DNA from: a bacterium
GTDB lineage: Bacteria > Chlamydiota > Chlamydiia > Chlamydiales > SM23-39
Reading direction: 5' to 3'
DNA: 34,400 bases
Assembly (NCBI GenBank): GCA_021809325.1
Contig: JAKBAE010000006.1
Coordinates: 1 to 34,400, forward strand
The notes below the pieces were generated by a model. The model saw only the letters and a list, made by a program, of their open reading frames with translations. It made no database searches and had not been told where the DNA came from. The position numbers and the translations under genes were made by a program. Shown here one piece after another: positions 8,448 through 16,175 of the stretch (positions within the stretch are counted from its first letter, which is position 1; each line of letters starts with the position of its first letter).

Positions 8448-9500
8448 ATGTCTTTAAAGATCAAACACCTCCTTGTAATGAAAGAGACCCGAGCAGGGGA
8501 GACGCGTGTTGCTGTAACTCCTCAGGCAGTGTCATTACTACGATCTCCGCATTACCGCCTTCTCGTTGAATCGGGTGCTGGCTTTAAAGCGGGTTTTTCC
8601 GATGCTGAATATATCCAAGCCGGAGCAGAGCTCTTTTCTTTGACAGAGGAGGGTTATCCTGCCGATACTCTTTTTCTAAGGGTAAAGCGGGCAGAGAAAG
8701 ATCGCGAATCCTTAGAACCTAAGTGGTTTAGTGAGAATACCGCTATGATCGGATTTTTAGATCCATTAGATGAGCCGGGAGATCATGTTCTCAGTTGGCA
8801 GCAGGCGGGGATCACCACATTTTCTGTAGACGTATTTAAAAGCTTGCCAACAGATGATCCTCGCAATATGCAGGCGGCGATGAGCCGAATGGCCGGAAGA
8901 TTGGCCTTTCGGGATGCTGTAGGACATGTTCTATCCAAAGAGCCGCCCAAATTAACTGTCTTAGGAACGGGTCCTGCTGCGATGAGCGCTGTTTTGGAAG
9001 CCATTGAGACCGGCGTTCCTGTCCAAGTATTTGGACTGCAGGAAAAGTATCGCAACCGGTTTGAGTCTCTTGGCGCTCTATATCGCTTAATTCCAGAACA
9101 TGCTGATCAGACAGAGTTTATCCGCCAGTATCTCTCGGATCAAACAATGGTTGTTTCGGCTGTAAGAGTAGCAGGAGTAAAGCCTCCGCTTTTAATCGAT
9201 GAGGCGAGTTTGCAACTCCTTCCTAAAGGCGCTGCGCTTGTCGATCTCACTGTTAATGAAGGCGGCAGCATTTTTGGAAGTAAAAATGACCAAGTTGTGG
9301 AATTGTATGGTGTGTTCATTAGTCACATGTCTGGTTATCCAAAGATGGAGCCCAAGGAGGCTAGTGAGGCATATGCATCCTGCATGGTTCATCTTCTTCG
9401 TGAGATTCTTACCCCATTTGGAGAGATTTTACTCAATCACGACCTTGCAAGAGAGTCCTGGATTACGCATCAGGGAAAGTGCAATCCTTTCTTCATCTAA
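8448..9500 (+). CDS. Alanine dehydrogenase / NAD(P) transhydrogenase alpha-like protein
   Basis: A 350-residue protein with the two-domain AlaDH/PNT fold. The N-terminus contains MKETRAGETRVAVTP, close to the family KE...E.RVALTP signature. A segment around residue 105-125 (IGFLDPLD, then GITTFSVDVF) resembles transhydrogenase alpha more than alanine dehydrogenase. The nucleotide-binding loop VLGTGPAAMSAV (about residue 166) lacks the third glycine of a classical GxGxxG. The histidine expected in alanine dehydrogenase near residue 110 is replaced by aspartate. No transhydrogenase beta partner is nearby. It could be a divergent dehydrogenase or an enzyme that has lost its usual activity; substrate and cofactor cannot be inferred. 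Its codons look AT-richer than ftsH, and it sits where Chlamydia goes directly from ftsH to pnp. Confidence 0.75.
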   Translation: MSLKIKHLLVMKETRAGETRVAVTPQAVSLLRSPHYRLLVESGAGFKAGFSDAEYIQAGAELFSLTEEGYPADTLFLRVKRAEKDRESLEPKWFSENTAMIGFLDPLDEPGDHVLSWQQAGITTFSVDVFKSLPTDDPRNMQAAMSRMAGRLAFRDAVGHVLSKEPPKLTVLGTGPAAMSAVLEAIETGVPVQVFGLQEKYRNRFESLGALYRLIPEHADQTEFIRQYLSDQTMVVSAVRVAGVKPPLLIDEASLQLLPKGAALVDLTVNEGGSIFGSKNDQVVELYGVFISHMSGYPKMEPKEASEAYASCMVHLLREILTPFGEILLNHDLARESWITHQGKCNPFFI

Positions 9501-11230: not shown

Positions 11231-11662
11231 TTAAATTAAAGGATTGAACAAGGGAACATCAGTATCTTGAAAATCCTTGATATTGTCTGTTACTAGAACA
11301 AGTTGATGTTGTAAGGCTGAAGCAGCTATAAGAGTGTCAATGACAGGAAGGGGGCGTCCCTTGTTTTGAGCTTCTCCCATGAGACGTCCCCAGAGTAAGC
11401 AAGTATGCTGATCAATTCCAAGAATACGATCGGCAAATCTTGGAATCAATTCGCTGAGAAGCCAATTTTCTAAAATCATTTTTTTTGTGTGTTCTTCGCG
11501 TTTGAGCTTTGAAATGCCCGATTGAATTTCTCCAATACTGACAGCACTGATAAAATAACTTGATTCGGGATACGTTGTAAGCCATTTTCTCAGCTTATCG
11601 TAATGAGAAACGGATAGTTTTCTCGATTTTGATAATATACAGGTATCTAGTAAGAAGCTCAT
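11231..11662 (-). CDS. vapC: PIN-domain toxin, VapC/FitB type
   Basis: A 143-residue PIN-domain ribonuclease, the toxin of a type II toxin-antitoxin pair. The acidic metal-binding residues expected of the fold are visible: D6 in the N-terminal FLLDTCILS, E45 in SIGEIQSG, D109 in PVIDTLIAA and D126 in LVTDNIKDF. Relatives cleave tRNA or other RNA in the cytoplasm. Its ATG overlaps the antitoxin stop by four bases (ATGA), indicating coupled translation. The next gene on the strand is the dcd-like gene. The actual RNA target cannot be read from the sequence. Confidence 0.9.
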   Translation of the reverse strand: MSFLLDTCILSKSRKLSVSHYDKLRKWLTTYPESSYFISAVSIGEIQSGISKLKREEHTKKMILENWLLSELIPRFADRILGIDQHTCLLWGRLMGEAQNKGRPLPVIDTLIAASALQHQLVLVTDNIKDFQDTDVPLFNPLI

Positions 11663-11955
11663 AAATCAATGTCTCTTCCAAAGTCTTTGGTTCTTTTTAT
11701 ATCCAAATCGTATTCGAATAGTGGGGAGTCAAGCAAGAAATCGCCTAAATTTTTTTTAGGCTTTTTAATTTGTTCGAATTCATCATGAGAAATGAGCACT
11801 GCAACCGGACGTCCGTTTTTCGTAATGGTTTGGTAGCCATCTTCCATTACTTCAGTAACTAATTCTGAAAATTTCGCTTTTGCTTCCTGCAATTGCCAAG
11901 TTCTATGCCTACGCCCTTTGCGAACAGAGGAACGTTTTTTTTTAATTTTGCTCAT
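11659..11955 (-). CDS. Phd/YefM-family antitoxin
   Basis: The 98-residue protein has the Phd/YefM DNA-binding fold signature: WQLQEAKAKFSELV, then DGYQTITKNGRPVAVLISHDEFEQI. An acidic C-terminal tail (DSPLFEYDLDIK) probably wraps and neutralises the toxin. The lysine/arginine-rich N-terminal 18 residues precede the family core. Antitoxins of this type bind their own promoter together with the toxin, and a palindrome lies directly upstream at 11964-11980. The gene overlaps the toxin by four bases, the normal antitoxin-first order. Confidence 0.88.
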   Translation of the reverse strand: MSKIKKKRSSVRKGRRHRTWQLQEAKAKFSELVTEVMEDGYQTITKNGRPVAVLISHDEFEQIKKPKKNLGDFLLDSPLFEYDLDIKRTKDFGRDIDL

Positions 11956-13769: not shown

Positions 13770-13878
13770 AAATAGTCTCCTATTTAAAATTTCAAGTTCT
13801 CTTACATTCACTCATTTGAACATTCGAAAATTGTAAAATGCGAAAGAATCCTAAGAGAATGAAAAATTTAATACAAGA

Positions 13879-14060
13879 GAAGGTGGTTGCAAAACTTGCG
13901 CATCCAGAAAAATCGATGATTTTGAGACAGTTTGCCAATCACGAAGCGGATGAAGCCCTGTTTCTGAGCACATACTTAAGGTGAGTAGCGCTAAGAGGCA
14001 GCGTGGCAAAATGACTCAAAAGGGCGATTATTCTGGGCGCCCCAGTTTTGCAATTGCCTC
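13879..14060 (+). repeat. Palindromic element copy A (182 bp), at the aspS 3' end
   Basis: The stretch aligns colinearly with the reverse complement of copy B (15951-16132) over 182 bases with no gaps and about 83% identity by hand count. The two ends form an inverted repeat of about 56 bases. An inner stem is kept partly through substitutions that preserve pairing. It fills almost all of the 297-base gap between the unknown gene start at 13769 and the aspS stop at 14067. A 15-base piece of its right end (14037-14051) recurs inside the last codons of aspS (14082-14096). Confidence 0.85.
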
Positions 14061-14066
14061 AGAGGT

Positions 14067-15875
14067 CTATTCTTTGCCGAAGCGCCCCAGTTTTGCCTCT
14101 GCTAGAACGAGTAGGTCTTTCGATTTCATGATGATCGATTCGGTTTGCGATCCGCAGTTAAAGGCGGATCTCTCCTGACTTGCAATGCGGTCATCGAAAT
14201 AGTTGTCGAGGTTGATCAGGTTGCCAAACGGCGGCACGCCGCCAACGGGGAGTCCAAAACGTTCCAGGATAATAACAGGATCTTCGAATTCGCATTTTTC
14301 TCCGACCGTCTCGGCGCAGGCCTTCATGTCGAGCTTCATGTGGGAGGGGATATTGAACTGGTAGTTTTTCTTGCTGCTTTTTCCTCGAACGATGATCGAT
14401 TTGACTCCCTCTTCCAACGTGGTATTGCGCACTCTCGCAGAGTCTTGCGAAGTAGGTGTTGCTTCATGGGTTAAGTGTTCGAATTCGCACTCTTCCTTGC
14501 GGAGCTTGCGGATGATCTCATTGCGGATATTTTCACCGCCGAAGAAGATTTTCGCTTTGATTCTATTCCCGGCAATTCGCTTGGTGTCGGAGGGGAAAAG
14601 CGAGGCTTCTCGGATATTTTTTAGCTGCAATAACGTCATCGTGAGCCTTTCCAGTCCCATCCCAAAGCCGCCATGCGGAGGCATTCCATAGCGAAAGATG
14701 CTCAGATAGTCGGCGAAGTTATCGGGGTTCATCCCTTTCATGAGGATACCTTCCAGCATCGACTCATAAGTGTGGCGGCGCTGTCCCCCCGAAGTGATCT
14801 CGACTCCTGCGCAAAGAAGATCAAACGTATTGGTCAGGTGCGGGTTTTCCTCATTTGGAAATGCGTAGAACGGCCGCTTTTCCGTCTTCCAGTCGATGAT
14901 AAAAATTAGATCGGTACCAGAGGTCTCGCGGCTCCACGTGCAAAGCTCGCGCTCTGCGGCGGGGCTCAAGTCAGGCTCGTTTCGCTCATCGATGCCGGTG
15001 CGCTGAAAATAGATCTCTTGCGCCTCTCTAAAGGTGAGCCTTGGAAACGGCACATCTTTGGGGCAGCGAATCAACGGCTGGCCCAGCGCTTCTAAATCGC
15101 TTGCACACCTTTTTTGCAGCGATTCTACAATATACTTGATGCACCCTTCTTGGATGTCGAGGACCTCATGCCAGTGCTCAAAAAAGCCCATCTCGAACTC
15201 AAGCTGCTTTCCTTCTGATAAGTGCCTGGATGTGTGAGACGGCTCTGCGCGGAAAAAGGGCATCAAGGCGAAGACGCGCTCATTGACGCCGACCATGATC
15301 TGCTTATAGAGCTGGCTGCTTTGTGCAAGCGTTGCCGTATACCCAAAATAGTCGACATTGAAAAATTCCGCACCTCCCTCAGAAGAGGCGCCGATGATAT
15401 TGGGGGCGAAATATTCGACAGCATCCACATGGTCATGCATATAAACCTGATAAGCATGTGCGATCTCAGCTTGGATGCGAAAGACTGCTTGAAGGCGGCG
15501 GTTGCGAAGCGCAATCGGCCGATGATCAAGGACAAAGTCAAGATCATTGTGCATCTCCGACTTATAATATTCCAAGGGGGGCGCCTCTCGGATTGCCTGC
15601 TCAACTGTGATTTTTGGATGATGAATCTCTGCGCCGAGGAGCGCTTCTTTCGAAGAGGCAGCCGTCCCTTCGACCTTTAAGATCGATCCTGGCTGTAGAG
15701 CTGCGATTTTTTTCCCCTCAATCGGATCTTCAATTACAACCTGGACGATGCCGGTTCTGTCTCGTAAAAGAAGAAATGTGAGCTTGCCAAAAGCGCGTGT
15801 TGTACTAAGCCAGCCACGCAAAAAGACGGTTTTTCCAATATGTTGAGAGATTTCTTGAACAAGTGTGCGATGCAT
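14067..15875 (-). CDS. aspS: Archaeal-type aspartyl-tRNA synthetase fused to a YbaK-like editing domain
   Basis: The 602-residue protein has two parts. Residues 1 to about 437 form a complete class II AspRS of the short archaeal type. It has an OB-fold anticodon domain, EFFNVDYFGYTATLAQSSQLYKQ, motif 2 FRAEPSHTSRHL, and motif 3 GGFGMGLERL at 402-411 followed by NIREASLFPSD. It lacks the large insertion of bacterial AspRS. Archaeal-type enzymes often charge both tRNA-Asp and tRNA-Asn. Residues about 445-602 look like a YbaK/EbsC aminoacyl-tRNA deacylase: K492 in GVKSIIV, GGVPPFG at 545-551 and a CGSQ segment near 575. AGAGGA lies 8 bases before the ATG. The gene interrupts the chlamydial ftsH-pnp order and is bracketed by two repeat copies, which suggests transfer. 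Confidence 0.88.
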   Translation of the reverse strand: MHRTLVQEISQHIGKTVFLRGWLSTTRAFGKLTFLLLRDRTGIVQVVIEDPIEGKKIAALQPGSILKVEGTAASSKEALLGAEIHHPKITVEQAIREAPPLEYYKSEMHNDLDFVLDHRPIALRNRRLQAVFRIQAEIAHAYQVYMHDHVDAVEYFAPNIIGASSEGGAEFFNVDYFGYTATLAQSSQLYKQIMVGVNERVFALMPFFRAEPSHTSRHLSEGKQLEFEMGFFEHWHEVLDIQEGCIKYIVESLQKRCASDLEALGQPLIRCPKDVPFPRLTFREAQEIYFQRTGIDERNEPDLSPAAERELCTWSRETSGTDLIFIIDWKTEKRPFYAFPNEENPHLTNTFDLLCAGVEITSGGQRRHTYESMLEGILMKGMNPDNFADYLSIFRYGMPPHGGFGMGLERLTMTLLQLKNIREASLFPSDTKRIAGNRIKAKIFFGGENIRNEIIRKLRKEECEFEHLTHEATPTSQDSARVRNTTLEEGVKSIIVRGKSSKKNYQFNIPSHMKLDMKACAETVGEKCEFEDPVIILERFGLPVGGVPPFGNLINLDNYFDDRIASQERSAFNCGSQTESIIMKSKDLLVLAEAKLGRFGKE

Positions 15876-15938: not shown

Positions 15939-15950
15939 GCTGGCCCGTTT

Positions 15951-16132
15951 GAGGCAATTGCAAAACTGGGGCATCCAGTAAAATCGCCCTTTTGAGCCAT
16001 TTTGCCACCCTGCCCCCGAGCCCTACTCACCTCGAGTATGTGCTCGGGGGCAGGGCTTCGGCCGCTTTGCGGCTGGCAAACTGGCTCAAAATCATCGATT
16101 TTTCTGGGTGCCCGAGTTTTGCAATTGCCTCC
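15951..16132 (-). repeat. Palindromic element copy B (182 bp), between aspS and pnp
   Basis: The same element as copy A, in opposite orientation on the other side of aspS. Terminal inverted repeats of about 56 bases start and end with GAGGCAATTGCAAAACT. Inside is a second, GC-rich stem (CCCTGCCCCCGAGC pairing with GCTCGGGGGCAGGG) and a small GCCGC-AAA-GCGGC hairpin. A transcript would therefore fold as a nested multi-stem structure. It makes up most of the 300-base gap between aspS and pnp; the rest of that gap holds only the aspS leader. Confidence 0.85.
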
Positions 16133-16175
16133 TTTGGCGGGATCGTAAGGGCGGAGCCCTTACTTAACCACCTAC

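Follow-up and report, generated by a model that had tools for sequence, protein, structure and literature searches.

A protein in which an aspartyl-tRNA synthetase (AspRS) of the archaeal type is joined at its C-terminus to an editing domain of the INS superfamily is encoded in the window, the 34,400 nucleotide stretch of Chlamydiota DNA that we have analyzed, and the same fusion, either complete or truncated where a contig stops, is present in 71 of 234 Chlamydiota genomes, or about one third. The gene is a single unbroken open reading frame on the minus strand (Table 1), with residues 1-436 forming the AspRS part and about 445-602 the whole INS/YbaK-superfamily domain. A first-pass annotation of this DNA, which gave no strand, had described an archaeal-type, short-form AspRS followed by a YbaK-like domain, and its account of the synthetase part holds, as this region matches the NCBIfam model NF003483, 'aspartate--tRNA(Asn) ligase', with 455.9 bits against a cut-off of 353, the nearest solved relative being Thermus AspRS2 (1n9w). 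The domain search that it proposed for the tail returns Pfam tRNA_edit over residues 470-589 at 9.3e-16 (58.5 bits, cut-off 25.5), and the motifs that it had picked out in the tail, K492, GGVPPFG (545-551) and CGSQ (574-577), lie at these positions in the reading frame. Both domains are thus above curated thresholds, and across the 71 genomes the editing domain is covalently attached, within one reading frame.

Table 1. Position of the fused gene in the window, with its domains and key residues.
Feature	Window coordinates	Strand	Basis
Whole fused aspS gene (602 codons/aa), encoding archaeal-type AspRS and the INS-superfamily editing domain at its C-terminus	14067..15875	-	ORF analysis, Pfam, NCBIfam
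OB-fold anticodon-binding domain, residues 18-91	15603..15824	-	Pfam PF01336, 6.7e-12
Class II (D/K/N) aminoacylation domain tRNA-synt_2, residues 113-430	14586..15539	-	Pfam PF00152, 7.8e-70
INS-superfamily (tRNA_edit) core, residues 470-589	14109..14468	-	Pfam PF04073 and structure model
Inter-domain junction, approximately residues 436-452	14520..14570	-	Model confidence low over 428-448
K191 of QLYKQ, AspRS hallmark lysine	15303..15305	-	Alignment, 49/49
E226, replaces Asp of other AspRS, aligned with amide-binding Glu of AsnRS	15198..15200	-	
R366, substrate-binding arginine common to AspRS and AsnRS	14778..14780	-	Alignment
K492, catalytic lysine of INS superfamily	14400..14402	-	Invariant, 49/49
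GXXXP loop GGVPP, residues 545-549	14229..14243	-	G545 and P549 invariant, 49/49

The host genome of the window comprises 2.19 Mb in 159 contigs and is 97% complete; its relatives are metagenome-assembled genomes (MAGs) of Chlamydiota. The fusion gene is flanked by two MITE-like palindromic elements of 184 nt in opposite orientation (13878-14061 and 15950-16133) that have terminal inverted repeats of 29-36 nt, are 84% complementary to one another and have 29 matches in the genome. Further away in the window are a PIN-domain toxin and Phd/YefM antitoxin pair (11231-11955, minus strand) and, downstream of a gene for an FtsH-type protease, an alanine dehydrogenase/PNT-like gene (8448-9500). A search for an operon partner was unsuccessful, with no gene common to most of the flanks and the commonest true neighbor present in only 10 of 41 loci.

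Since the full-length fusion is shared by approximately 70 other, independent Chlamydiota genomes, near-complete assemblies among them, an artefact of assembly, sequencing or reading frame is ruled out, and with it the first-pass concern that the frame joining the two parts might be in error. The homologues are 59-77% identical to the query, with the exception of one at ∼45% that derives from a reduced genome of 0.8 Mb (G107), and all conservation counts given below refer to 49 non-redundant fused sequences. Among the 234 Chlamydiota genomes the fusion was not found in one family (f4, which from its ProRS type and its small, complete genomes is probably the Chlamydiaceae) and is nearly absent from another (f28), these absences carrying the uncertainty that goes with genomes that are mostly MAGs. 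In a tree the fused enzymes cluster as a single clade with respect to their unfused archaeal-type counterparts, with two of the families (f22 and f25) intermingled, and distances computed from the AspRS part and from the tail are correlated (Mantel test, r = 0.89, p = 0.001, falling to r = 0.53 when the two most divergent sequences are left out). The single clade and the correlated distances fit a history of one fusion event followed by joint descent of the two parts with losses or transfers. Sampling outside the Chlamydiota covered plasmids, viral contigs and, from a single further phylum, 298 genomes. Spread on plasmids was considered and rejected, as only 130 of 72,556 plasmid records match and none of these covers 80% of the query; no fused copy was found in the viral contigs and none in the 298 further genomes, which belong to the phylum of G234. 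This genome and G235, MAGs deposited as Gammaproteobacteria and Legionella, contain one fusion gene each (L058 and L065, respectively), which may reflect contamination or transfer.

No bacterial AspRS was found in 52 of the 71 genomes that carry the fusion, the host and G107 included, and in these the fused enzyme is apparently the only AspRS; in the host the best match to the bacterial enzyme, at 1e-30, is a cross-hit. The standard bacterial AspRS about which the first-pass annotation had asked is therefore not found in the host, and 19 of the 71 genomes have both types. Over all 234 Chlamydiota the counts are 52 with the fusion only, 141 with the bacterial enzyme only, 19 with both and 22 with neither, so that the two tend to exclude each other (Fisher p = 6e-19, a value that treats related, non-independent genomes as independent). 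The 22 genomes with neither include G054, G059 and G204; several of the 22 are incomplete, but others exceed 90% completeness, with values of 96-98% among them, and they may lack the relevant contigs or possess a further type of AspRS. The class IIb enzymes of the host are the fused AspRS, an asparaginyl-tRNA synthetase (AsnRS, 667.9 bits) and EpmA. Every AspRS catalytic residue that was checked is conserved, with K191, R209, R366 and R410 invariant in all 49 sequences, and the fused enzyme is probably a working AspRS. Where both types coexist the fusion can decay: one near-complete genome with a bacterial AspRS (G096) has a broken copy with an in-frame TGA and split frames (L105, G096:C1:795500-800500), and within the same genus two genomes (G095 and G097) are without the fusion while a third (G098) has it in full length. 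An unfused archaeal-type AspRS was seen in only one Chlamydiota genome (G091, locus L104, G091:C301:8000-13500), where it is ∼40% identical and frame-broken; this genome, too, has a bacterial AspRS.

A feature of the synthetase part that is absent from the first-pass annotation is a family-wide change in the amino acid pocket. Position 226 is Glu in each of the 49 fused enzymes and lies in a stretch, E221-G-K-Q-x-E226-x-E228, whose named residues are all invariant. The same column is occupied by Asp in every unfused AspRS of archaeal or eukaryotic type that was checked, namely the structures 1n9w, 3nel, 1b8a, 1wyd and 6iy6, the frame-broken enzyme of G091 and six plasmid-borne unfused archaeal-type AspRS (L124-L129; the C-terminal part of L129 is out of frame and only the region before it was used). 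The Asp of the (S/T/F)-x-D-x-E motif of other AspRS, a criterion noted in the present analysis and not a published one, is thus replaced by Glu in all of the fused enzymes, and because the curated cut-off of NF003483 is passed the replacement is a change within that family. Glu is found at this column in AsnRS, including that of the host itself, that of T. thermophilus (E225 by counting, 5zg8) and that of P. horikoshii (E228, 1x54), and we take it to be the amide-binding Glu of AsnRS, which in the Thermus structure is E225, alongside R368. In AsnRS a Glu and an Arg hydrogen bond the amide of Asn, and in AspRS a Lys and an Arg bind Asp (PMC7387524). Since K191 (and R366) are kept while E226 matches AsnRS, the pocket of the fused enzymes is, by alignment, a hybrid of the Asp and Asn types in which the AspRS lysine is combined with an AsnRS-type glutamate.

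The tail is predicted with high confidence (AlphaFold2 with the 49 tails, pLDDT 94.9, pTM 0.90), and Foldseek matches the model to ProXp-x (2cx5), YbaK (1dbu), 1wdv and 2dxa with query-normalized TM scores of 0.79-0.83, so that the YbaK fold, whose absence from a structure prediction was to count against the first-pass reading, is present. The full-length model has a pTM of 0.59, its pLDDT drops below 50 in the linker and in some of the active site, and it is unusable for the orientation of the domains. Taken alone, all 49 tails match tRNA_edit. The INS superfamily is defined by a catalytic lysine and a GXXXP loop (PMC11286415); K492, G545, P548, P549, G551, E579 and S580 are invariant in the 49 homologues, and lysine and loop are retained even in the 45%-identical protein of G107. 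This pattern of substitution indicates that the tail is under constraint, and it bears on the possibility that a former deacylase has become an accessory module for tRNA binding or structure. Conservation of the tail is slightly below that of the synthetase part (mean pairwise identities of 66% and 72%, respectively, over the fused sequences), as such a role would allow, and appended domains often function in tRNA binding alone; nevertheless, with the very residues that define the superfamily kept in every sequence, we consider an inactive module to be quite improbable.

Within the superfamily the tail is not a YbaK, as follows from a score of only 38.8 bits against the YbaK_EbsC model TIGR00011 (equivalog cut-off 153.25) and from its position in a small tree, where the tails group together (support 84) outside a separate group made up of YbaK and ProXp-x (90). 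What remains of the first-pass assignment is hence the INS/YbaK fold with its catalytic lysine, and not orthology to YbaK. Mean bit scores of the tails are 61 for YeaK/ProXp-ST1, 46 for ProXp-x (a partial sequence), 44 for YbaK and 0.4 for the INS domain of ProRS; a freestanding chlamydial ProXp-x-like protein scores 56 bits against the tails. YeaK joins the tails in the small tree only weakly, with a support of 64, a long ProXp-ala-like branch intervening. Sequence comparison therefore assigns the tail to a separate branch of the INS superfamily, by score nearer to E. coli YeaK (ProXp-ST1) than to YbaK among the characterized members compared. The host genome also encodes a freestanding INS-superfamily protein near the ProXp-x group (L001:1429-1896).

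We propose that the fused enzyme is an AspRS with its own post-transfer editing of misacylated tRNA-Asp, bearing Asn, Ser or another small residue, and consider the chances that this is correct to be about even. The OB-fold and class II domain would charge tRNA-Asp and the C-terminal domain, using K492 and the GXXXP loop, would hydrolyze mischarged tRNA made or held by the synthetase part. The hybrid pocket, with E226 alongside K191, is a likely reason that an editing domain is needed: it may be poorer at excluding Asn, or a small amino acid like Ser, and tRNA-Asp charged in this way would be cleared by the editing domain. Catalytic activity of the tail, its action on tRNA-Asp in preference to other tRNAs and the identity of the amino acid removed are all inferred, the pocket suggesting Asn and the similarity to YeaK suggesting Ser or another small amino acid. 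Because the fusion and E226 each arose a single time, both at the root of the same clade, they amount to one instance of co-occurrence, and a functional link between the glutamate and the tail is put forward as a hypothesis. The description of AspRS as an enzyme that does not use editing (PMC7387524) counts against the proposal. A more specific version, in which Asn is misactivated by the hybrid-pocket chlamydial AspRS and then taken off tRNA-Asp by the attached deacylase, which would represent a new INS subfamily, seems unlikely to us; characterized enzymes of the superfamily remove Ala, Cys, Ser, Thr and Abu, all small amino acids, and no report of Asn removal by this superfamily was found in the literature examined.

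A different use of the tail had been suggested in the first-pass annotation, namely that the AspRS is non-discriminating and that the tail removes Asp from tRNA-Asn. The synthetase part does match the aspartate--tRNA(Asn) ligase model and has the non-discriminating Thermus AspRS2 as its nearest structure, and 11 of the 71 fusion genomes, including the fairly complete G058 and G165, have no clear AsnRS. We nonetheless disfavor this reading, and regard it as very improbable, because AsnRS is present in the host and in 60 of the 71 fusion genomes and GatB, for which together with AsnRS a search had been recommended, is present in the host as well, where Asp-tRNA-Asn would serve no need and, even if it were formed, would not have to do harm. 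Such intermediates have, moreover, been described as resistant to proofreading (PMC9976931). The column that aligns with the Pro of Thermus AspRS2 (KAPGG) is without Pro in all 49 fused enzymes. Feng and co-workers are said to have found in 2005 that this Pro is required for recognition of tRNA-Asn by Deinococcus AspRS2; as it is missing also from other unfused AspRS compared, its absence is no more than a hint as to discrimination against tRNA-Asn.

Compared with built-in editing of tRNA-Asp, a role as a broad trans-editing deacylase of the YeaK/ProXp-ST kind that is merely carried on AspRS strikes us as rather unlikely, although it has more in its favor than the other alternatives. The tail would then clear Ser-, Thr-, Ala- or Cys-tRNAs produced by other synthetases, for example a ProRS without an INS domain, and the ProRS of the host is indeed of the archaeal/eukaryotic type (TIGR00408) and lacks this domain. 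YeaK, the closest characterized relative, has broad tRNA specificity (PMC11295145), and in many fusion genomes no tRNA_edit domain was found besides the tail. However, freestanding tRNA_edit genes occur at similar frequencies in genomes with (18 of 71) and without (34 of 141) the fusion (p = 0.87), so that the tail seems to be no substitute for them, and the idea that it replaces ProRS editing or freestanding genes was set aside for want of any association. Further, ProRS in Chlamydiota seems not to demand a tRNA_edit domain, since 97 of the 234 genomes have no match whatsoever, and trans-editing leaves unexplained why the tail has persisted on one synthetase across all branches.

The fusion is, on the basis of its domain matches, a new and conserved combination of known domains. 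Archaeal-type AspRS or AspRS2 (Thermus 1n9w, Deinococcus) has the same arrangement of domains, the same class II motifs, the lysine of QLYKQ and the short form without the bacterial insertion, but those checked end at approximately residue 435 and have Asp at the 226 column, where the fusion has its tail and Glu. YeaK/ProXp-ST1 (E. coli b1787, a Ser/Thr-tRNA deacylase) has the INS fold, conserved Lys and GXXXP loop of the tail as well as the RGTxLxxGxKAL and FNxG motifs, yet it is freestanding and only ∼28% identical. YbaK (Cys-tRNA-Pro deacylase; 1dbu, 2dxa) shares superfamily and fold with the tail, which lies on a separate branch and far below the cut-off. Covalent attachment of an INS-superfamily deacylase to a synthetase is seen in ProXp-ala fused to ProRS (Plasmodium, Trypanosoma) and in the INS domain of ProRS; these join ProRS N-terminally or as an insertion, in contrast to the C-terminal position on AspRS in Chlamydiota. 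SadB-like proteins (9qzk, 3mem), also among the Foldseek matches, contain the fold within a larger protein with partners that are not synthetases.

A review from 2024 names seven synthetase families that possess editing domains, AspRS not included, and describes INS-superfamily members other than the ProRS insertion as proteins of a single domain; its exceptions are the ProXp-ala that some eukaryotes have fused to ProRS and a C-terminal extension in plants (PMC11295145). The first-pass annotation knew of no such system, and no description of an AspRS-tRNA_edit fusion was found in the 5.39 million open-access papers to which our search was confined; automatic database annotations of the fusion genes probably exist. 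If the proposal of built-in editing is true, AspRS would be the eighth synthetase family with an editing domain of its own and the INS superfamily would gain a new partner; should Asn be the residue removed from tRNA-Asp, the substrate would be one unreported for this superfamily in the literature examined. The fusion also touches on a long-standing issue in AspRS and AsnRS evolution, how Asp is distinguished from Asn, and it provides a natural experiment on whether replacing one pocket residue, Asp by Glu, makes proofreading necessary.
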